From: an uncultured Ruminococcus sp.
GTDB taxonomy: Bacteria > Bacillota > Clostridia > Monoglobales > Monoglobaceae
NCBI GenBank assembly: GCA_902766745.1
Contig: CACXES010000052.1
Span: forward strand, 1-64,000
Length of the DNA: 64,000 nucleotides
Direction of reading: 5' to 3'
In this document: positions 15,748 through 26,853 of the stretch, piece by piece
Position numbering within the stretch: the first letter of the stretch is position 1
Layout of the letters: every line of letters starts with the position of its first letter
Translations under genes and position numbers: made by a program
Notes under the pieces: generated by a model
The model's input: the letters and a program-made list of their open reading frames with translations, nothing else
What the model was told of the DNA's origin: nothing
Database searches by the model: none

Positions 15748-17112
15748 TCAGTTTCTGAGGCTGTGTATCGGGGCCGGAATCCTTCCTCCCCTTTCAATAA
15801 ACTTCTCCGAGGAATACTCGTGAACGGGCATTACCGGTGCCGCACCGAGAAGTCCGCCGAATTCCACGCTGTCTCCGACCTTTTTCCCGGCGGCAGGTAT
15901 AACCCTCACTGCGGTGGTTTTTTGATTTATCATTCCTATCGCCATTTCGTCAGCGATTATTGCCGACACAGTCGAAGCCGGGGTATCACCCGGTATGGCA
16001 ATCATGTCAAGCCCCACCGAGCATACGCAGGTCATTGCCTCAAGCTTGTCAAGGGTCAGTGCGCCGCATTCCGCAGCGGCGATCATACCCGCATCCTCAC
16101 TCACCGGTATGAAAGCCCCCGACAGACCGCCGACATAGCCCGATGCCATAACGCCGCCCTTCTTGACTGCGTCATTCAGCAGTGCAAGTGCCGCCGTTGT
16201 GCCGTGAGTTCCGCATTTTTCAAGGCCCATTTCTTCTAAGATATATGCCACACTGTCCCCAACCTCCGGGGTCGGCGCAAGTGAGAGATCAACTATTCCG
16301 AACGGAACGTTCAGCATCCTCGAAGCCTCCTGCGCCACAAGCTGTCCCATCCTGGTTATCTTAAACGCTGTTCGCTTAATAGTTTCGGCAACAACTCCGA
16401 AATCCTCTCCGCGAACCTGCTCCAGTGCGGATTTCACAACGCCGGGGCCGCTTATTCCTACATTTATCACACAGTCGCCCTCGCCCACGCCGTGGAACGC
16501 TCCCGCCATAAACGGGTTATCCTCAACGGGATTTGCGAATACAACAAGCTTAGCGCAGCCCATGGACGAATTATCGGCGGACATTTTCGCCGTGTCACAG
16601 ATAATCCTGCCCATTCTGCCGACAGCATCCATATTTATGCCCGCCTTGGTGGTTGCAACTCCGACAGAGGAGCAAACCCTCTCGGTTGTGCAAAGTGCCT
16701 CCGGGATTGAGTTCAAAAGATACTCGTCACCCTTAGAAATCCCCTTGTATACCAAAGCGGAGTAGCCGCCGATAAAATTCACACCCAGCTCACGTGCGGC
16801 ACGGTCAAGGGTTTTCGCAAATGGCAGGTAGTCATCGGTTTTACTTGCCGCCGCAACAAGAGAAATCGGTGTTACCGATATGCGTTTATTTATAATCGGT
16901 ATGCCGTACTTGCGGCTTATCTCCTCGCCGCAGCTTACAAGCTTCCTCGCACAGCGCATAATCTTATCGTAAATCTTGCCGCACGCACGATTACAATCCT
17001 CGTCCGCACAGTCAAGCAGGGAAATACCCATTGTTATAGTTCGTATATCAAGATGCTCATCTCGAATCATTTTTATTGTTTCGACAATTTCGTTTGAGCT
17101 TATGTTAATCAT
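15748..17112 (-). CDS. DUF711 / UPF0210 (PFL) family protein
   Basis: A 454-residue member of the UPF0210/DUF711 family, whose founders resemble glycyl-radical-like folds but whose function is unknown. Typical segments are [38 protein letters not shown] and the glycine-rich [25 protein letters not shown]. It sits behind the small ACT-domain gene, its usual neighbour in Firmicutes, and directly ahead of the V-type ATPase genes. GGGAG precedes the ATG. No signal or membrane segment is seen. Confidence 0.88.
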
Positions 17113-17208
17113 AAAAATCTCCCGTCCGCCGCGTATGCCGCAGCTTATGTAATATTCCGGTCAAAACCGCGGTTTTTATAAATTTCGGCAAGCAATGCCT
17201 CCGCAAAG

Positions 17209-17478
17209 CTAAATTCTGTGCATCGAATTGAATATATCGCTGTGCTGAATACGAATCTCAAGCCCTATCTCACGACCGAGCTCATCAAGCTTTGCGGCAA
17301 GCTCATCAAAGCCGATGCTGCACTTTTCAATATCAACCATCATTGTCATTGTAAATATATCCTGTAATATAGTCTGTGCAATATCCAAAATATTAACACC
17401 ATTCTCGGCAAGCAGCGTGCTTGTTTTTGCAATAATTCCCGTTCTATCCTTACCCATTACCGTTACAACTGCGCGCAT
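17209..17478 (-). CDS. ACT domain protein (UPF0237 family)
   Basis: An 89-residue stand-alone ACT domain (MRAVVTVMGKDRTGIIAKTS, then NILDIAQTILQDIFTMTMMVDI). ACT domains bind amino acids or other small ligands and regulate partners. The conserved pairing with the DUF711 gene 96 bp downstream suggests joint function, but the ligand is unknown. GGAGATAGG precedes the ATG. Confidence 0.9.
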   Translation of the reverse strand: MRAVVTVMGKDRTGIIAKTSTLLAENGVNILDIAQTILQDIFTMTMMVDIEKCSIGFDELAAKLDELGREIGLEIRIQHSDIFNSMHRI

Positions 17479-17545
17479 AACCTATCTCCTTTTTAATCTC
17501 AAAAATATATTTGTGAATTATTTGTAAATTTTAAAATTTACTCGT

Positions 17546-17575
17546 ATTATACTGCTTTTATCATATCTCTGTCAA
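17546..17575 (-). promoter_or_regulatory. Sigma-A promoter ahead of ACT-DUF711-ATPase genes
   Basis: Minus strand: TTGACA (17570-17575), 18-bp spacer, TATAAT (17546-17551). No terminator was found between here and 7043, so it may drive the whole 10-kb set. Confidence 0.75.
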
Positions 17576-17587
17576 GCATATTTTGCA

Positions 17588-17611
17588 CAAAAAAAAGTCG
17601 CCCTCGGCGAC
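17588..17611 (-). terminator. Terminator of the aromatic operon
   Basis: GTCGCC (17597-17602) and GGCGAC (17606-17611) form a tight hairpin followed on the minus strand by eight Ts. It ends the transcript that starts at the aroF leader. Confidence 0.85.
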
Positions 17612-17739: not shown

Positions 17740-18054
17740 CTATCGGTCCGCTCCGTCCCACAGGTATTTATCAAGCTCGACATACCCATCATCCGAAACC
17801 TCAATGCCATCGGCGCGAAGCAGCATAATCTGCATATTTTCGCCGCCGAAGGCAAAGGCGTTCGACACTCTGCCGTTTCGGTTCACCACACGAAAGCAAG
17901 GTATCTCGTCCGGGTCGGGATTGGCGTGCAGAGCATAACCCACAACCCTCGCCCATCGCGGATTTCCGGCATACAGCGCAATCTGTCCGTAGGTCGCAAC
18001 TCTCCCCCTCGGAATCCTCTTAACCTGCGCATAAATTTTTTCAAATACGCTCAT
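17740..18054 (-). CDS. MGMT-like DNA alkyltransferase-domain protein
   Basis: A 104-residue protein corresponding to the DNA-binding, active-site domain of O6-methylguanine methyltransferases without the N-terminal domain. The helix-turn-helix (GRVATYGQIA) and the RWARVVGYAL segment with the arginine finger are present. The active-site motif reads IPCFRVV: the acceptor Cys53 is kept but the usual His after it is Phe, so alkyl transfer may be weak and a damage-flagging role like the alkyltransferase-like proteins is possible. It is the last gene of the aromatic operon, 9 bp after aroE. Confidence 0.8.
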   Translation of the reverse strand: MSVFEKIYAQVKRIPRGRVATYGQIALYAGNPRWARVVGYALHANPDPDEIPCFRVVNRNGRVSNAFAFGGENMQIMLLRADGIEVSDDGYVELDKYLWDGADR

Positions 18055-18063
18055 TTACACATC

Positions 18064-18906
18064 TCACCTGTCTCCCACGGCGTCAATCACCGTATTGTAT
18101 AAATCCTGCATATCAAGCTGTCTGTCCAAATACCTCTCGTCTGCGGCAATAGCCTGAAAAATCAGCATATCAAGACCGTTCTGTATCTTAAGCCCCCTAT
18201 TCTCCGCCTCTGTCAGAAGCGCAGTCTTTTTCGGCTTATATATCAAATCCGACACAAGCGCATCGCCCGGCAGTGCATCTATAAAATCAAAGCCGTCAAA
18301 GCTGTGCGAAACGCCCTCCATTCCCAGAGGGGTGGCGTTAATAAGCACCTCGGCGCATTCGCACTCGGCGGCAATCTCCGTATCGGAAAAGCCGCAGATT
18401 TTTATTTTGGTATCACCAAGGTCACGGTCGCATATCTTCTCTGCGTGCGCCGCCGTGCGACAGGCAACGGAAATACTCTCCGCTCCGCCCCGTATCGCCG
18501 CAGCAATCACTGCCGCCGCTGCACCTCCTGCGCCGAGGACAACCAGCCTGCTTCCCGAAAACTTCTTCCCCATTCTGCCCAGGGCAAGCTCATAACCGAT
18601 TCCGTCCGTATTGAAGCCATGCAGCTCACCGTTTCTTATACACACAGTATTTACCGCAGAATAATAGCGTGCCTCATCATCTATCCTCGACAGATAAGGA
18701 AGAATGTTCACCTTGTGCGGCATGGTCAGGTTGAACCCGTCAAGACCCTCGCGCTTCGCCGTCTTGACAAATTCCCCCAATTCCTCGGGACGGACATGCA
18801 CCTTTTTGTATTCGTACTCAACACCCAGTCTGTCAAGCGCCGCTCCGTGAACAGCCGGTGACAGACTGTGCTCTATGGGATCTCCTATTACGGCAAGCCT
18901 AATCAT
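18064..18906 (-). CDS. aroE: Shikimate dehydrogenase
   Basis: Reduces 3-dehydroshikimate to shikimate with NADPH. Length 280. Substrate-binding Ser/Lys/Asp motifs are visible: EHSLSPAVHGAAL, MPHKVNILPY (catalytic Lys) and NTDGIGYELAL (catalytic Asp). The NADP loop is VVLGAGGAAAAVI. GAGGAG lies within the aroQ 3' end, and only 2 bp separate the genes. Confidence 0.96.
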   Translation of the reverse strand: MIRLAVIGDPIEHSLSPAVHGAALDRLGVEYEYKKVHVRPEELGEFVKTAKREGLDGFNLTMPHKVNILPYLSRIDDEARYYSAVNTVCIRNGELHGFNTDGIGYELALGRMGKKFSGSRLVVLGAGGAAAAVIAAAIRGGAESISVACRTAAHAEKICDRDLGDTKIKICGFSDTEIAAECECAEVLINATPLGMEGVSHSFDGFDFIDALPGDALVSDLIYKPKKTALLTEAENRGLKIQNGLDMLIFQAIAADERYLDRQLDMQDLYNTVIDAVGDR

Positions 18907-18908
18907 AA

Positions 18909-19367
18909 TTATTCGCTCTCCTCTTCGGACGTCATTGATATTGTATCTATAAGATAATCCATTGCGAGGGCATAGCCCTTAAACCCCAAGCCGCATATCT
19001 GTCCCACGCAGGACGGAGCGGTAACCGACTTGTGGCGGAACTCCTCTCTCTTGTGAATGTTGCTTATATGCACCTCAACCGCCGGAACATCAACCGCAGC
19101 AAGAGCGTCCGCAATGGCATAGCTGTAGTGAGTATATGCCCCCGGGTTTATGACGATACCGTCGAAGTTCCCCAAGGCATAATGAATATAGTCTATAATA
19201 TCTCCCTCGCTGTTGCTCTGCATGGGAACCGCCTCAACGCCTCTCTCCTCGCCGTGCTTTTCGACATATGCCTCCAGATCGCTGTAGCTTTGTTCCCCGT
19301 AAACCCCCGGCTCTCGTACGCCGAGGAGGTCAAGGTTCGGCCCGTTAATCACCATTATTTTCATCAT
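18909..19367 (-). CDS. aroQ: Type II 3-dehydroquinate dehydratase
   Basis: Converts 3-dehydroquinate to 3-dehydroshikimate. It is a 152-residue flavodoxin-like type II enzyme: INGPNLDLLGVREPGVYG with the catalytic Arg/Tyr lid, NPGAYTHYS, and VEVHISNIHKREEFRHKS with the catalytic His. The start at 19367 lies 22 bp inside the aroK 3' end, so the genes overlap. GGGGG is 7 nt upstream. Confidence 0.96.
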   Translation of the reverse strand: MMKIMVINGPNLDLLGVREPGVYGEQSYSDLEAYVEKHGEERGVEAVPMQSNSEGDIIDYIHYALGNFDGIVINPGAYTHYSYAIADALAAVDVPAVEVHISNIHKREEFRHKSVTAPSCVGQICGLGFKGYALAMDYLIDTISMTSEEESE

Positions 19368-19854
19368 TTGAAATCCCCCTTATCGCATCTGTCAACATCT
19401 TTTCCGCATATTTAAAATCCCTGTCATTGAGAATCCTTATATCGCATACTCGGCGGTATATGTCATATCTCTCATCATACAGCCGCTTAAGCCTGCCGTT
19501 ATCCGACAGCAGCGGTCTGCCGCTTGTATCGATATCGCTCTCTATGCACTCCAGCGGCCTGTCGATAAATACTACCGTTCCGCTTTTCATAATTTCCAAG
19601 TTTTCTCTCTCTGTCACTATGCCGCCGCCTGAGGCAATCACCGCATTTTGACCTATTGCATTCCTCAATGCCAAAGTCTCTGCACGGCGAAAATACCTCT
19701 CGCCGAATTCCGCAAAAATCTCGGGAATGGTCCTTCCCTCCGCCTTTTCAATCTCTGTATCCGTATCAAGGAACTTCATATTCAGCCGCCTTGCTGCGGC
19801 TCTGCCCAGGCTCGATTTTCCGCAGCCCGGCATTCCGATAAGCAAGATTCCCAT
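19345..19854 (-). CDS. aroK: Shikimate kinase
   Basis: Phosphorylates shikimate at the 3-hydroxyl. 169 residues, with P-loop GMPGCGKSSLGR, shikimate-binding FLDTDTEIE, and the GGGIV loop. The ATG at 19854 has GGAGG at 8 nt; its A is the last base of the pheA TAA, a stop-start overlap implying translational coupling. Confidence 0.95.
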   Translation of the reverse strand: MGILLIGMPGCGKSSLGRAAARRLNMKFLDTDTEIEKAEGRTIPEIFAEFGERYFRRAETLALRNAIGQNAVIASGGGIVTERENLEIMKSGTVVFIDRPLECIESDIDTSGRPLLSDNGRLKRLYDERYDIYRRVCDIRILNDRDFKYAEKMLTDAIRGISNDENNGD

Positions 19855-21020
19855 TATATTATCCTCCGTGTGCCGCCGCTCCATTCGTCATAGCAGCCCA
19901 GTATGTCAAAGCTCTGTGTCTCGCGTATGACCTCATCGGTCACCGCCTTAACCTTCTCATCCATAAGATTCCCGGTGTAGTCGGCGTAAAACCTGTATTC
20001 AAAGGGTCTGTCCGCTATGGGTCTGGATTCCAGCTTCAAAAGGTTAAGTCCGCAGCGGGCAAACGCCCCGAGGATTCTGTAAAGCTGTCCGCTCTCGTGC
20101 TTTAATGTGAAAACAACGCTTATCTTATTGCTCTTATCATCCATCTCGGGTCGTCTCGCCGTAACGGCAAATCGGGTGGTGTTGCAGGAGTTGTTTGCAA
20201 TATTTTTCTCCAAAATTGTTAAATTATACAGCCTCGCCGTCCTCTCGGACGCAATGGCGGCACAGGTCTTATCGTTAAGCTCCGCTACCTTCTTTGCCGA
20301 GCGTGCCGTACTGAGGTAATCCTCTGCTTCGGCTCCGCTCAATTTTCCGAGGAAGTCCGAACACTGCATAATCGCCTGATTATGCGAATATATCTTTTTT
20401 ATCTTATCGGTTTCGGCACCTTCAAGCCCCACAAGACAATGCCGCACCGGCACATATACCTCACCGATTATATACAGTCCCATATCGGCGATAAGCTCCG
20501 AAACATCGGCAACTGTCCCCGTAGAGGAATTTTCTATCGGCACAACGGCATAGTCCGCCTCGCCCTCGGCGGCAAGCTTTAAGACCGCCATAAAATCCGA
20601 CTTACAGCTTCGGCTGACCTCCTCGCCGAAATACTTTATTGCCGCCTCCTCGGTATACGAACCCTCGTCTCCGAAGTAAGCAACCTTAGGATTCTTGACC
20701 GAAGGCTTTGCACACTCAATAACCTTATCGCAGGCATCGCCGCCCTCTGCCTCGGACATCAGTCTGCCTTGAATTGTACGGCTTATGGTCATAATATTGC
20801 TGAAAAAGTCGTATACCTCGCTTTTCAGCTCCGGGTTGTCAAGCATTTTAAGCTTGCTGTTCAGCACCTGCTTTTCCCTTTCCGGATCGAGGACCTTTGC
20901 CCCTGTTCGAAGCTTATATTCACCAACCTTGGTGCATACCTCCATCCTCTCGGTAAAAAGCTTCAAAAGCTCTCTGTCCAGTTCGTCAATTCTATCTCTC
21001 AACTGTTCCAGCTCGCCCAT
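19854..21020 (-). CDS. pheA: Bifunctional chorismate mutase / prephenate dehydratase
   Basis: Makes phenylpyruvate from chorismate. 388 residues in three parts: an AroQ-type chorismate mutase (about 1-90, LRDRIDELDRELLKLF), a prephenate dehydratase domain (about 110-290, starting VAYFGDEGSYTEEAA and ending with the TRFAVTARR motif), and a C-terminal ACT domain (about 300-380) with the Phe-binding ESRP motif and RILGAF in place of GALV. The ACT domain implies feedback inhibition by phenylalanine. The ATG at 21020 is behind GGGGGAGG; the end of aroC is 2 bp upstream. Confidence 0.95.
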   Translation of the reverse strand: MGELEQLRDRIDELDRELLKLFTERMEVCTKVGEYKLRTGAKVLDPEREKQVLNSKLKMLDNPELKSEVYDFFSNIMTISRTIQGRLMSEAEGGDACDKVIECAKPSVKNPKVAYFGDEGSYTEEAAIKYFGEEVSRSCKSDFMAVLKLAAEGEADYAVVPIENSSTGTVADVSELIADMGLYIIGEVYVPVRHCLVGLEGAETDKIKKIYSHNQAIMQCSDFLGKLSGAEAEDYLSTARSAKKVAELNDKTCAAIASERTARLYNLTILEKNIANNSCNTTRFAVTARRPEMDDKSNKISVVFTLKHESGQLYRILGAFARCGLNLLKLESRPIADRPFEYRFYADYTGNLMDEKVKAVTDEVIRETQSFDILGCYDEWSGGTRRII

Positions 21021-21022
21021 AC

Positions 21023-22096
21023 TTACGCCTCCCCCAATATCATATCCAAAACCGTGATTGCCGCCGCCGCCGAAACAACGGATGCCGCACGGTGCACAAT
21101 ACACGGGTCATGCCTGCCGTGAATTTTAATCTCCGTATTTTCCATTCTTTCTATGTCAATGCTGTTCTGCGTCTGACCTATCGATGCCGTAGGCTTTACG
21201 GCAATACGGAATATTATCGGCATACCGTTGGTGATTCCGCCGTTTATGCCGGCATTGTTGTTTGTGCGGGTTTTTACCTGTCCGTTCTCGATATAAAACT
21301 CATCATTTGCTTCGCTTCCGTACATCCCGGCAAAGCCGAAGCCCCTTCCGAATTCGATTCCCTTTACCGCAGGGATCGAAAACATCATTGATGACAGACG
21401 GCTCTCCACCGAGCCGAAAAACGGTGAGCCTACACCGGCAGGCATTCCGCATATCGCACATTCCAAAATTCCGCCGACAGAATCCGCAGAAAGACGGCTC
21501 CTGTCTATCTCCTCGCGCATTTTCTCTCCCGCCTCGGCGCAAATCACCGGAAAATCCATTTTTTCCAAATCATTTAAGGCGTTAATGTCAGTCGAAACCG
21601 AGTCAAAGGGTGTGTCATACACATCACCCACCCTGTAGATATGTGTGCCGATAGTCACCGAATATTTTTTCAGAACCTGCTCGGCAACGGCACCGGCAAA
21701 TACCAAAGGTGCGGTAATCCTGCCCGAAAAATGGCCGCCGCCCCTGAAATCACGGCTTTCGCCGTACTTGACATATGCGGTATAGTCTGCGTGTCCCGGA
21801 CGCATAAGCTCCCCTTGGTAGTCCTTCGACCGCATATCTCTGTTTTCGATAATTCCGCACATGGGCGTACCCGTGGTCTTTCCGTTCACAAAGCCGGAAA
21901 CGATTTTAACCCGATCCCCCTCCACACGGGTGGTCGACATCAGGTTCTTCCCGGGTCTTCGCCTGTCCATCCTCATCTTTATATATTCTTCATCAAGCTC
22001 CGTTCCCGACGGAACCCCGTCAAGCACCGCACCTATTGCCTTTCCGTGAGATTCTCCGAAAATACTTACCTTAAACCGCTCTCCCCAAGTGTTCAT
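21023..22096 (-). CDS. aroC: Chorismate synthase
   Basis: Removes phosphate from EPSP to give chorismate, using reduced FMN. 357 residues with the family signatures GESHGKAIGAVLDGVPSG at the N-terminus, RPGKNLMSTTR, and YGESRDFRGGGHFSGR. GGAGGAATGAG precedes the ATG. 42 bp downstream of aroA. Confidence 0.97.
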   Translation of the reverse strand: MNTWGERFKVSIFGESHGKAIGAVLDGVPSGTELDEEYIKMRMDRRRPGKNLMSTTRVEGDRVKIVSGFVNGKTTGTPMCGIIENRDMRSKDYQGELMRPGHADYTAYVKYGESRDFRGGGHFSGRITAPLVFAGAVAEQVLKKYSVTIGTHIYRVGDVYDTPFDSVSTDINALNDLEKMDFPVICAEAGEKMREEIDRSRLSADSVGGILECAICGMPAGVGSPFFGSVESRLSSMMFSIPAVKGIEFGRGFGFAGMYGSEANDEFYIENGQVKTRTNNNAGINGGITNGMPIIFRIAVKPTASIGQTQNSIDIERMENTEIKIHGRHDPCIVHRAASVVSAAAAITVLDMILGEA

Positions 22097-22138: not shown

Positions 22139-23401
22139 TCATATTTTCAATCCGTTATACACATCAAAAAAGTCGGGGTACGACTTCGCTACCGCTGACA
22201 GAGCGTTCAATATACAAACCTGCTCGCCCTCGGCACGACACGCCGCTATGGCTTCCGCCATGGCTATTCTGTGGTCACCCCGTGACGATACACATACTCC
22301 GTTCACCGTCTGTCCGCCGATAATTTTAAGGCTGTCGGCGCCTTCTTCTATATTTACGCCCATATGCGAAAGCTCACCGCTGACCGCCGCAAGTCTGTCG
22401 CTCTCCTTCATCCGAAGCCGCCCGGCGTTCAATATCCTGCTCTCACCCTTGCAAAAGGCAAACAAAACCGCCAAAATCGGCACTAAATCCGGAATCTCCG
22501 ACACATCTATCTCTATGCCGTGCATATTGGAAGTGTGCTTTGCGCGGATTCCGTTGGGCGTTTTTTCAATTATGCCGCCCACACGCTCTATTATACCGAC
22601 AATCTCTCGGTCACCCTGAAGACTGTTCTCACTCAATCCTACACATTCAATATCATTTCCTATCGCACCTGCCACGAGGAAGAATGCCGCCTGGGAATAG
22701 TCGCCCTCCAGCGTGTAATTACGCGGCTTGTATTCTTGATTTCCCTTTATTATGTACTTTCGGTAATTCCTGTTCTCTATCTCTATTCCGAAATCCTTTA
22801 GGATATCCAATGTCATATCTATATACCCCTTGGATTCCGCCTCGGTGGTAACGGTAATGACGCTGTCGCCGTCCAGCCTCGGCAGGGCGAACAGCAGCCC
22901 GGTGATAAACTGTGAGCTGATATTCCCGGCAATCTCATATTCACCGCTTTTCAAGCCACCGCTGACCTCAAGAACGTTGTCTTGAATCCTATACTCTATC
23001 CCGTGCTTTTTGAACATCTCAAAATACGGCTCCATAGGTCTTTTCATAAGCCTTCCGTGGCCTATGAAGCTTGCGCTGCCGCTGAAGGTCAGGGCAATCG
23101 GTATCATGAACCTGAGTGTCGAGCCGCTCTCGCCACAGTCTATTTCAAGTCTGCGCTTTGGTTTTTGCGCCTTGGGTGCAAGGGTCAGCGTCCTTGTCTT
23201 TGAATTGTATCTGTGCTTGCAGCCGAGAGAGCTCACGCCTCTGAGCGTTGCCTCAATGTCCTGCGACAGCACTGCGTTTTCAATAACACATTCGCCGCCC
23301 GACAGCGCCGCCGCAATCACCGCACGGTGCGCCGCGCTCTTGGACGGGGGAACAGCAACCGTCCCCCTGAGCATTCCCGGTTCAATTATAACATTATCCA
23401 T
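22139..23401 (-). CDS. aroA: 3-phosphoshikimate 1-carboxyvinyltransferase (EPSP synthase)
   Basis: Transfers enolpyruvyl from PEP to shikimate 3-phosphate. 420 residues in two similar lobes. Visible are PPSKSAAHRAVIAAAL with the substrate-binding Lys, CGESGSTLRFMIPIAL near residue 85, KESDRLAA, and the C-terminal DHRIAMAEAIAA. The ATG at 23401 follows GGAGGAG; 14 further codons upstream are open but lack a ribosome site. Confidence 0.96.
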   Translation of the reverse strand: MDNVIIEPGMLRGTVAVPPSKSAAHRAVIAAALSGGECVIENAVLSQDIEATLRGVSSLGCKHRYNSKTRTLTLAPKAQKPKRRLEIDCGESGSTLRFMIPIALTFSGSASFIGHGRLMKRPMEPYFEMFKKHGIEYRIQDNVLEVSGGLKSGEYEIAGNISSQFITGLLFALPRLDGDSVITVTTEAESKGYIDMTLDILKDFGIEIENRNYRKYIIKGNQEYKPRNYTLEGDYSQAAFFLVAGAIGNDIECVGLSENSLQGDREIVGIIERVGGIIEKTPNGIRAKHTSNMHGIEIDVSEIPDLVPILAVLFAFCKGESRILNAGRLRMKESDRLAAVSGELSHMGVNIEEGADSLKIIGGQTVNGVCVSSRGDHRIAMAEAIAACRAEGEQVCILNALSAVAKSYPDFFDVYNGLKI

Positions 23402-23458
23402 ATTCTCCTCCGCAATCCTGCCGCAGTGTCGATTCCGCCGCAATATCTGAATTTTGCA

Positions 23459-24508
23459 TTACAGCCCGACGTACAGCTCACTCTTTAACACTCTGTGAGC
23501 CGACGCCTCGCCGATTTTATTCAGGGCAATAACGTTTATATAATCTCCGTCACCCTTTTTATCCACCGAAACCGCCTTCATAAGCTCCTCTGCCGGAAGC
23601 TCCGTTTCGGTGGGAAGCTCGTATCTTTCAAGTATTTTCTTCATTCTTTCCGCAGTGCCTATGGGCGTTATCCCCCGATTTTCACCCCATCTGCACGCCA
23701 TAACCATTCCAACCGCAACGCCCATACCGTGAGTGTACAGGTCATAATGATAGTATCTCTCCACGCCGTGTCCGAAGGTATGCCCGAAATTCAAAATCAT
23801 TCGAAGCCCGGTGTCGTGCTCGTCCTCCTCGACAATCCTCCCTTTTATGGCACAGCAGGTATAGATTATATCCTCCATATGCTCCGCCACGCTGTTAAGC
23901 TCCAAGGTCTCGAGCTTTTCAAAGAAATTGCTGTCGGAGATCGCTCCGTACTTTATAACCTCCGCCATGCCGTCCGCAAGAACGTTCCTCGGCAGTGTCT
24001 TCTGACACTCGGTGTCGATAATCACCGCCTTAGGCTGATAAAACGCACCAACAAGATTTTTGCCGCGTTCAAGGTTTACCGCCGTCTTTCCGCCCACGCT
24101 GGAATCCACCTGTGCCAAAAGCGTTGTCGGAATCTGAACATAGGGTATCCCCCGAAGCAGCGTTGCTGCGGCAAATCCCGTAAGGTCGCCGACAACGCCG
24201 CCGCCGAGAGCGATAATCATATCCGTTCTAGTCACGCCAAAATCCAAAAGCTTGTCATACAGGCTGAAAAGAACCTCGCCGGACTTGCTGTGCTCTCCGG
24301 CTTCAACGGTGATTACCCGTGTTTCATAGGCTCCGAGTGCGCCCGTCAAACGCTTCGCATAAAGCGGTCCCACATTAGAATCGGTTACAACGGCAATACG
24401 CTTGCCGGAGAAAAGCTCGCCTATTATCTCGCTCGCTTTATCCAACAAACCCTTTCCTATATGAATATCATACTCATGTCCCGGCACTTCCGCTCTTAAT
24501 ATTCTCAT
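23459..24508 (-). CDS. aroB: 3-dehydroquinate synthase
   Basis: Cyclises DAHP to 3-dehydroquinate using NAD+ and a divalent metal. 349 residues, with GGGVVGDLTGFAA (NAD loop), IPTTLLAQVDSSVGGKTAVN and metal ligands including HTFGHGVE. The start codon's ribosome site AGGAGAAAT lies in the last unit of an 18-bp tandem repeat (24513-24583) that fills the gap to tyrA. Confidence 0.96.
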   Translation of the reverse strand: MRILRAEVPGHEYDIHIGKGLLDKASEIIGELFSGKRIAVVTDSNVGPLYAKRLTGALGAYETRVITVEAGEHSKSGEVLFSLYDKLLDFGVTRTDMIIALGGGVVGDLTGFAAATLLRGIPYVQIPTTLLAQVDSSVGGKTAVNLERGKNLVGAFYQPKAVIIDTECQKTLPRNVLADGMAEVIKYGAISDSNFFEKLETLELNSVAEHMEDIIYTCCAIKGRIVEEDEHDTGLRMILNFGHTFGHGVERYYHYDLYTHGMGVAVGMVMACRWGENRGITPIGTAERMKKILERYELPTETELPAEELMKAVSVDKKGDGDYINVIALNKIGEASAHRVLKSELYVGL

Positions 24509-24512
24509 ATGA

Positions 24513-24583
24513 TTTCTCCTATCTGACTAATTTCTCCTATCTGTCTAATTTATCCTATCTGACTAATTATCCTATCTGTCAAG
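24513..24583. repeat. 18-bp tandem repeat between tyrA and aroB
   Basis: Three full 18-bp units (24513-24530, 24531-24548, 24549-24566) and a partial fourth reaching 24583. Units alternate between GAC and GTC at one position and differ by a C/A change. The partial unit overlaps the last codons and stop of tyrA (Asp-Arg-stop), and the first unit holds the aroB ribosome site, so the array seems to have grown by duplicating the tyrA-aroB junction. Confidence 0.9.
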
Positions 24584-25441
24584 TATATTTATTTTATTCT
24601 CGCGAACATGGCTCAGCAGCTCATAAAGGCCTTTGCCGTCCCGTTTATCTATTGCCTCACGGAATTTGTTCAGCGACTCAATATACCTGTCTATCTCACC
24701 CACAGTATAATCCGCATTTTCAAGGAACAGCTCTGTCCACAGCTTCGGATTTATAAGCGCAATCCTCGTACAGTCCCGAAACGCCCCGGCGGTATAAGCC
24801 AAATTCATATCATCGTTAAAGTTCAGGCAAAGTGCCGCCGCCGAAACGTGCATAAGGTCGCTTGTATACGCAATAATCGCATCATGCTCGGCAGGAGTGC
24901 TGACCGCAATCCTTGCCGCACCTAAGTATTCCGCCATTTCGCGCACAAGCAAAACGGCGGATTCATCCGACTTATCCGAGGGAACTATTATAAATCCGCA
25001 GCCGCAAAACAGGTCAGGCTCTGCATTTTCAAAGCCCTCAACCTCTTTGCCTGCCATCGGGTGACTGCCGACATAGTATGTTCCCTCCGGCAGGGCTTCG
25101 GTTATTTCCTTTGAAATACGGGTTTTGACGCCGCATATATCCGTTATCACCGCCCCCGATTTGAACCTTGCTCTGTTTTCCTTAACTATTTGTACAACGC
25201 TGTCGGGATATGTGGCGATAATCACCAAATCAGCGTCCTCTATTGCATCTCCGGCATCGCTAAAGCACCGCTCCACCGCGCCGCACGCCTCAGCGCTCTC
25301 CCGAACCTTAGAATTCATGTCACAGCCGACAACCGTTCCGCCTTTAAAATCCCTCAAGCCGTACGCCATTGAGCCGCCTATAATTCCCAATCCTATAACC
25401 GCTGTTTTAAAGCCTGCTTCCGTCTTTTCTTCCATAATCAT
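24572..25441 (-). CDS. tyrA: Prephenate dehydrogenase
   Basis: Oxidatively decarboxylates prephenate to 4-hydroxyphenylpyruvate with NAD(P)+. 289 residues, with nucleotide loop VIGLGIIGGSMAYGLRD and catalytic-region motifs SHPMAGKEVEGFENA and ATYPDSVVQIV. It ends without the C-terminal ACT domain of the Bacillus enzyme, so Tyr feedback at the enzyme is less certain. AGGATGATGG precedes the first of two ATGs. 26 bp after aroF. Confidence 0.94.
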   Translation of the reverse strand: MIMEEKTEAGFKTAVIGLGIIGGSMAYGLRDFKGGTVVGCDMNSKVRESAEACGAVERCFSDAGDAIEDADLVIIATYPDSVVQIVKENRARFKSGAVITDICGVKTRISKEITEALPEGTYYVGSHPMAGKEVEGFENAEPDLFCGCGFIIVPSDKSDESAVLLVREMAEYLGAARIAVSTPAEHDAIIAYTSDLMHVSAAALCLNFNDDMNLAYTAGAFRDCTRIALINPKLWTELFLENADYTVGEIDRYIESLNKFREAIDKRDGKGLYELLSHVRENKINILDR

Positions 25442-26484: not shown

Positions 26485-26603
26485 TTATATCATTCCTTCC
26501 AAGCTTAATTTTTCTCAAGACACACCTTGACCGCCGTATGCCGTCCGCTCCGCTCACCCTCGGCGCCGCATGGTCAGACTTTGCGTCCGTGCAGCCGACA
26601 ATC

Positions 26604-26632
26604 AAAAAGGGCAGGTTCGAGAGAACCTGCCC
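26604..26632 (-). terminator. Attenuator terminator in the aroF leader
   Basis: On the minus strand GGGCAGGTTC and GAACCTGCCC (26609-26618 and 26623-26632) form a perfect 10-bp hairpin with a 4-nt loop, directly followed by five Ts. It lies about 190-215 nt after the predicted start of transcription and 120 bp before aroF. Confidence 0.88.
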
Positions 26633-26687
26633 ATACCATACTGAGATTTAATTTTCAAAAGGTAAATCGGTTCAGAGCTCTCTCGAA
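26616..26687 (-). promoter_or_regulatory. Antiterminator pairing in the aromatic leader
   Basis: UUCGAGAGAGCU (reading down from 26687), the last sense codons of the leader peptide, can pair over 12 positions with GGUUCUCUCGAA inside the terminator (26616-26627): nine Watson-Crick pairs in a row (26679-26687 with 26616-26624), then G-U, C-G and U-G. The two folds exclude each other. A ribosome stalled on upstream aromatic codons would leave the first strand free; one that reaches the stop at 26672-26674 would cover it. Confidence 0.7.
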
Positions 26688-26785
26688 TTTTCACACCAAA
26701 AATAGCCGTAGCCACTAAAGCTAAAGCTAAAATAAAAGTAGAACTTATTTGATTTTGATGCATTTAAGTTCGAACAGCTGCCCAT
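26672..26785 (-). CDS. Aromatic-rich leader peptide controlling the aro operon
   Basis: A 37-codon frame whose residues 15-30 read FYFYFSFSFSGYGYFW: six Phe, four Tyr and one Trp out of sixteen, encoded at 26696-26743. Both Phe codons (mostly TTT) and both Tyr codons occur. The ATG at 26785 has AAGGG about 10 nt upstream; a second in-frame ATG at 26803 would add six residues but has a poorer ribosome site. The frame ends 40 bp before a terminator, lies behind a strong promoter and precedes DAHP synthase. This is the arrangement of pheA or trp leader peptides of enterobacteria, but covering all three aromatic amino acids. Translation has not been shown; the case is composition plus position. 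Confidence 0.8.
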   Translation of the reverse strand: MGSCSNLNASKSNKFYFYFSFSFSGYGYFWCENSREL

Positions 26786-26824
26786 GCTTCCGTTTCCCTT
26801 CATCAAATTTATAAATACAATTTT

Positions 26825-26853
26825 ATCATACTCCATATGTTTTGAATTGTCAA
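26825..26853 (-). promoter_or_regulatory. Sigma-A promoter of the aromatic operon
   Basis: Minus strand: TTGACA (26848-26853), 17-bp spacer, TATGAT (26825-26830). Transcription would start near 26818, giving a leader of about 335 nt before aroF. Confidence 0.78.

Follow-up and report, generated by a model that had tools for sequence, protein, structure and literature searches.

The locus studied here raises the question of how a long aromatic operon is controlled in a member of the Clostridia, and which amino acids provide the signal. In Firmicutes, control of aromatic amino acid genes is usually described in terms of T-boxes and TRAP. The window that we analyzed, a stretch of 64,000 nucleotides from an uncultured Ruminococcus sp., contains such an operon behind a short reading frame with a dense run of aromatic codons. 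All features of the locus lie on the minus strand. The operon begins with aroF, coding for a DAHP synthase (TIGR01361; 25468 to 26484), followed by a tyrA-type prephenate dehydrogenase gene (24572 to 25441), aroB (23459 to 24508), aroA (EPSP synthase; 22139 to 23410), aroC (21023 to 22096), a pheA-type chorismate mutase/prephenate dehydratase gene (19854 to 21026), aroK (shikimate kinase; 19345 to 19854), aroQ (type II dehydroquinase; 18909 to 19367), and aroE (18064 to 18906); the start codons of aroA, the pheA-type gene, and aroK are approximate. The last gene of the operon (17740 to 18054) is alkyltransferase-like (PF01035), so that of the ten aromatic genes counted in the first-pass annotation, nine belong to the pathway. 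A terminator-like site at 17611 to 17597 marks the operon end. After it, a consensus-perfect promoter (TTGACA-18-TATAAT) is found at 17575, with an ACT-domain gene and a DUF711 (PRK05313) gene behind it (15748 to 17575). On the other side, spoIIE (PF19732, PF07228; 26951 to 29299) adjoins the leader promoter upstream on the same strand.

The promoter and the leader frame were found as previously annotated. A sigma-70-like promoter, TTGACA-17-TATGAT (26853 to 26825; TTGACA at 26853 to 26848, TATGAT at 26830 to 26825), matched 11 of 12 consensus positions and was the top-scoring site between 26000 and 27400; similar promoters occupy the same position in relatives (e.g., L004 and L008). As expected for an attenuator, a short leader frame with a ribosome binding site lies 3' of this promoter. 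The probable binding site is a GAAGGG region (26797 to 26792), where relatives carry AAAGG or AAGGAG-type sites, and the frame comprises 37 codons plus stop (ATG at 26785, stop at 26672), encoding MGSCSNLNASKSNKFYFYFSFSFSGYGYFWCENSREL. Homologous leaders exist in relatives, and their starts are equivalent to the ATG at 26785. A longer frame of 54 amino acids from an in-frame ATG at 26836 was discarded: it would start 5' of the expected transcription start and is unmatched in relatives. Within residues 15 to 30 of the leader, 11 of 16 are Phe, Tyr, or Trp. No other such stretch occurs in any of the six reading frames of the window, and shuffling the region 20,000 times with an order-1 Markov model yielded at most 10 aromatics per 16 residues. 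The aromatic codon run (FYFYFSFSFSGYGYFW; 26743 to 26696), which is conserved in relatives, is the presumed stall zone.

An intrinsic terminator (26632 to 26604) separates the leader from aroF, and relatives have matching terminators. Its stem (26632 to 26609) is a perfect 10-bp helix with a 4-nt loop, followed by T5, and begins 39 nt past the leader stop, in agreement with the terminator and T run noted initially. Following the usual numbering of attenuators, segment 3 (26632 to 26619) comprises the 5' arm and loop of this terminator, which is thus the 3:4 hairpin, and also serves as the 3' strand of a putative antiterminator. The 5' strand of the latter, segment 2 (26684 to 26669), overlaps the last leader codons and the stop. 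Segments 2 and 3 pair through GAGAGAGC/GUUCUCUC, CUG/CAG, and CC/GG, with a duplex energy of -18.3 kcal/mol. The pairing of 26687 to 26679 with 26624 to 26616, originally proposed as the antiterminator, does exist, but it is merely the inner part of this longer 2:3 pairing and was superseded by it as the whole antiterminator. Segment 1, the protector (approximately 26803 to 26768), includes the ribosome binding site and first codons and can pair with segment 2. The locus contains both an antiterminator pairing that excludes the terminator and a protector pairing (1:2) that overlaps the antiterminator segment.

We modeled stalling by setting a ribosome at each aromatic codon, assuming that it covers the A-site codon plus 10 nt beyond. 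When the RNA extended up to the terminator loop, an antiterminator hairpin of about -21 kcal/mol was predicted for each aromatic codon from 15 to 30. For a ribosome that had reached the stop codon, the model left no stable structure, and the terminator was predicted to form. Once the whole terminator was present, the antiterminator was the predicted minimum-energy structure only for stalls at approximately codons 26 to 29, and the terminator for most stall positions. Because the antiterminator wins only there, earlier stalls and a stall at codon 30 depend on the order of cotranscriptional folding. Folding of the full leader in the absence of a ribosome placed segment 1 on segment 2 and produced the terminator.

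Comparable leaders with terminators precede aroF in genus members and in the family to which Monoglobus and Ructibacterium belong, so that the combination of aromatic codons and terminator recurs in close relatives, as the initial annotation had suggested checking. Among them is a cultured relative, Ructibacterium gallinarum DSM 107454 (L007). An aromatic core, such as FYFSFSFYGYGYF or FYFSQSFYFSFGYF, is common to the peptides, which diverge at both ends. Some aroF copies have no such leader, among them those of L069 and L070, which belong to one genus of the same family and in which leader regulation has apparently been lost or replaced. When core codons were compared pairwise, synonymous and aromatic-to-aromatic differences were the commonest (85 and 78, respectively), followed by changes that created or removed an aromatic residue (58) and others (46).

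To what extent the RNA pairings belong to each leader individually was assessed in 75 leaders by pairing every segment 2 (the stretch after the last aromatic codon) with its own segment 3 (5' arm plus loop of the terminator) and with the segments 3 of other leaders. The 2:3 pairing averaged -13.5 kcal/mol with the own partner versus -8.5 kcal/mol when permuted and was better than expected in 72 of the 75 leaders; none of 5,000 permutations was as good, a p-value not to be taken literally, since these statistics treat related genomes as independent and so ignore shared ancestry. What carries weight is the size of the effect, together with the negative control: the 1:3 pairing, which would be subject to any bias in base composition as well, showed no signal in the same 75 leaders. 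For the 1:2 pairing, with the 60 nt that precede the run of aromatic codons taken as segment 1, the means were -23.8 (own) versus -17.0 kcal/mol (permuted), and 72 of 75 leaders again beat expectation. The stretches of segment 2 used by the 1:2 and 2:3 pairings overlapped in 71 of 75 leaders, which is what mutually exclusive folding requires. Stems differed in sequence with pairing kept, e.g., CCUUUGAACC/GGUUCGAAGG, AAAGCCCGU/ACGGGCUUU, and UAUAAUGAGCU/AGCUCGUUAUA.

Beyond the close relatives, we surveyed 80 further aroF upstream regions, one per genome, drawn from 245 genomes of Clostridia. At least 8 Phe, Tyr, or Trp residues within 16 were encoded in 43 of the 80, compared with ∼1 expected by shuffling and 1 found on the opposite strand. 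Sampling at the phylum level gave such a frame in 8 of 28 regions (L174, L175, L177 to L180, L184, and L188; ∼0.3 expected). As an independent check, a peptide profile built from 17 leaders was run over the 245 genomes. Outside the family of the window it returned 14 hits with E values of <1e-3, all in front of aromatic biosynthesis genes. Eleven preceded aroF, unrelated families included, and three occurred in genomes lacking this type of aroF: before pheA-aroB-aroC-aroE (L202, genome G147), before pheA-tyrA and a type I-alpha DAHP synthase gene (L203, G053), and before a type I-alpha DAHP synthase gene (L204, G114), the genes of all three being named from their translations rather than from a library scan. 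Together with the aroF hits, these three cases show that the leader follows the pathway and not one gene, and they suggest that the leader stayed as the first gene changed. Weak hits (E values of >1e-3) in G117 and G211 revealed no leader upon inspection, and the peptide profile found no second leader copy elsewhere in the genome that contains the window. In some Desulfuromonadales (L030, L033, L034, and L037), aroF also lies behind leaders rich in Phe, Tyr, and Trp, e.g., MNSNRFFSAFYFFFWYGFYFRPS in L030 and L034, the latter two with a terminator and a strong antiterminator-like 2:3 pairing as well; these leaders are possibly of independent origin.

The first-pass annotation had proposed that the leader reads Phe, Tyr, and Trp together. 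If it were a true three-way sensor, it would respond alike to shortage of any of the three. In the window leader, a single Trp codon (TGG) stands at position 30, where a stall is predicted by folding to still leave segment 2 free, and across 80 leaders Trp occurs in 24 cores, often in repeated context (SWGYFYF, FWGFYF). However, Phe and Tyr are present in all 80 leaders and make up 33% and 25% of core residues, respectively, versus 2% for Trp. Among relatives, a Trp codon is found in L013/L048 and L055 and is absent from L003/L008, L004 to L007, L009 to L012, and others. Most family members and all four same-genus genomes (L003/L008 and L004 to L006) lack it, so that the stall zone contains no conserved Trp codon. 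In addition, trpE and a TrpB2-type gene of this genome are preceded by T-boxes of their own (L044 and L045, on contigs C42 and C49) with UGG specifiers, as read by alignment to the T-box model. Since these UGG T-boxes precede the Trp genes, this genome splits aromatic control, with T-boxes for Trp and the leader peptide for the trunk and for Phe and Tyr. A further T-box, on contig C87 (L043, 657 to 935), has a UAC (Tyr) specifier and precedes a sodium:solute symporter-like gene that is a candidate for tyrosine transport. Judged from the codons, Phe and Tyr are the conserved signal, and Trp is not part of it in this lineage; three-aromatic sensing was accordingly dropped as a conserved trait of the lineage, and an equal response to all three amino acids appears unlikely even for the window leader. 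Sensing of Phe and Tyr, with Trp left to the T-boxes, is the best-fitting reading. Trp may add to the response here via its one codon, and it may be sensed in other families, where leaders of the SWGYFYF type recur.

Other explanations take the aromatic peptide or the RNA to act in a different way. In nascent-peptide arrest of the TnaC type, the aromatic peptide would stall the ribosome through a free metabolite in the exit tunnel and not through uncharged tRNA. Conservation of the aromatic core at the residue level is compatible with this, but the order and identity of residues vary widely among families with only aromatic richness kept, Phe/Tyr interchanges and synonymous changes form the two commonest classes of codon difference, and the terminator logic fits starvation stalling; we regard arrest of this kind as very improbable. 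A functional aromatic microprotein, with an ordinary terminator behind it, would account for the conserved start, ribosome binding site, and core. It is harder to reconcile with peptide ends and lengths that diverge as RNA pairing is preserved, and with a profile search that places the leaders before aromatic genes only, which makes it a still more remote prospect.

Alternatively, the frame might be incidental and the operon controlled by a protein- or tRNA-binding leader, that is, by TRAP or a T-box. A TRAP gene (PF02081) is present in 22 of the 38 genomes of the family, one of them G004 from the same genus. Three UAG triplets, 3 nt apart, occur in the window leader, and the genome does contain T-boxes. 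Against this, TRAP was not found in this assembly, and TRAP-regulated leaders need ∼9 to 11 (G/U)AG repeats with 2- to 3-nt spacers; chains in relatives comprised 1 to 3 repeats, near the shuffled level, and the longest in the window had 3. No T-box covariance model (RF00230) match was obtained at the leader, and the three T-boxes of the genome sit elsewhere. More generally, the search against Rfam 15 gave no family match for the window leader (at the gathering score) or for ten relatives (E < 0.5), Phe_leader and Trp_leader included. Control of the operon by such a binding leader can practically be set aside.

Attenuation by a translating ribosome remains the reading that we prefer, and the comparative evidence renders it very probable, as all four elements (aromatic leader, terminator, antiterminator, and protector) are found again in relatives, where changes in sequence compensate one another; the original proposal of ribosome-mediated attenuation of the aromatic operon is thus strongly supported. 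Translation of the leader, stalling itself, and the identity of the sensed amino acids are inferences. With high confidence, we propose that a four-segment transcription attenuator monitors the charging of tRNA-Phe and tRNA-Tyr and thereby controls the shikimate/Phe/Tyr operon. With both tRNAs charged, the ribosome would reach the leader stop and cover segment 2, and the 3:4 terminator would form before aroF. If Phe- or Tyr-tRNA ran short, the ribosome would stall within codons 15 to 29, leaving segment 2 free to pair with the emerging segment 3, and transcription would continue into the operon. In an untranslated leader, segment 1, with the ribosome binding site and first codons, would occupy segment 2, resulting in termination by default.

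This system is a widespread variation on ribosome-mediated attenuation and not a new kind of system. It shares the four-segment logic (1:2, 2:3, 3:4) and the use of end-product codons with enterobacterial pheL-pheA, trpL, and pheST, which sense one amino acid and control branch genes, whereas the window leader stands before the common trunk. Like T-box leaders (RF00230), which occur here at trpE and trpB2, it would sense aminoacylation and control aromatic genes by antitermination, but T-boxes bind tRNA directly, without a leader peptide, and none is present at this aroF. The earlier statement that known cases sense one amino acid does not hold. The E. coli ilvGMEDA and thr leaders are textbook multi-amino-acid attenuators. 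Published examples also include Rli60 of Listeria, a Firmicute ribosome-mediated attenuator that, like the window leader, reads several end products of one pathway, there the branched-chain amino acids controlling ilv-leu through a 13-residue leader (PMC5864092). In Corynebacterium glutamicum, the leader peptide AroR (Phe-Tyr-Phe) precedes a DAHP synthase gene, as in the window, and attenuates the aroF operon, reportedly responding to Phe but not to Tyr limitation (Neshat et al. 2014, as described in PMC11802643 and PMC4046766); three aromatic codons are named there, in another phylum, compared with ∼10 before a nine-gene aromatic operon here. In the Acholeplasma uORFC-13-1 motif, aroF likewise follows a terminator and a predicted upstream frame that contains Phe codon(s), but its 24 examples come only from Acholeplasma and unassigned environmental sequences and have at least one Phe codon, in contrast to the long Phe/Tyr run of the window (PMC8632094). 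Our search, which covered open-access literature, found no description of an aroF leader peptide in Clostridia.

We give even weight to a broader proposal: that these leaders represent an old attenuator family of Clostridia and neighboring classes, absent from Rfam, in which a single peptide monitors two or three aromatic amino acids and thereby controls shikimate entry, the logic of the family being kept as peptide, stems, and first gene (aroF, pheA, or a nonorthologous DAHP synthase gene) change, and that in some lineages, possibly this one, it adds Trp to become a full end-product sensor parallel to the Trp T-boxes. Should our survey hold, the entry step of the shikimate pathway would commonly be under leader-peptide attenuation in Clostridia, with the trunk pathway matched to Phe and Tyr demand and Trp handled by separate T-boxes, and many natural variants would be at hand for testing how one leader reads more than one amino acid.
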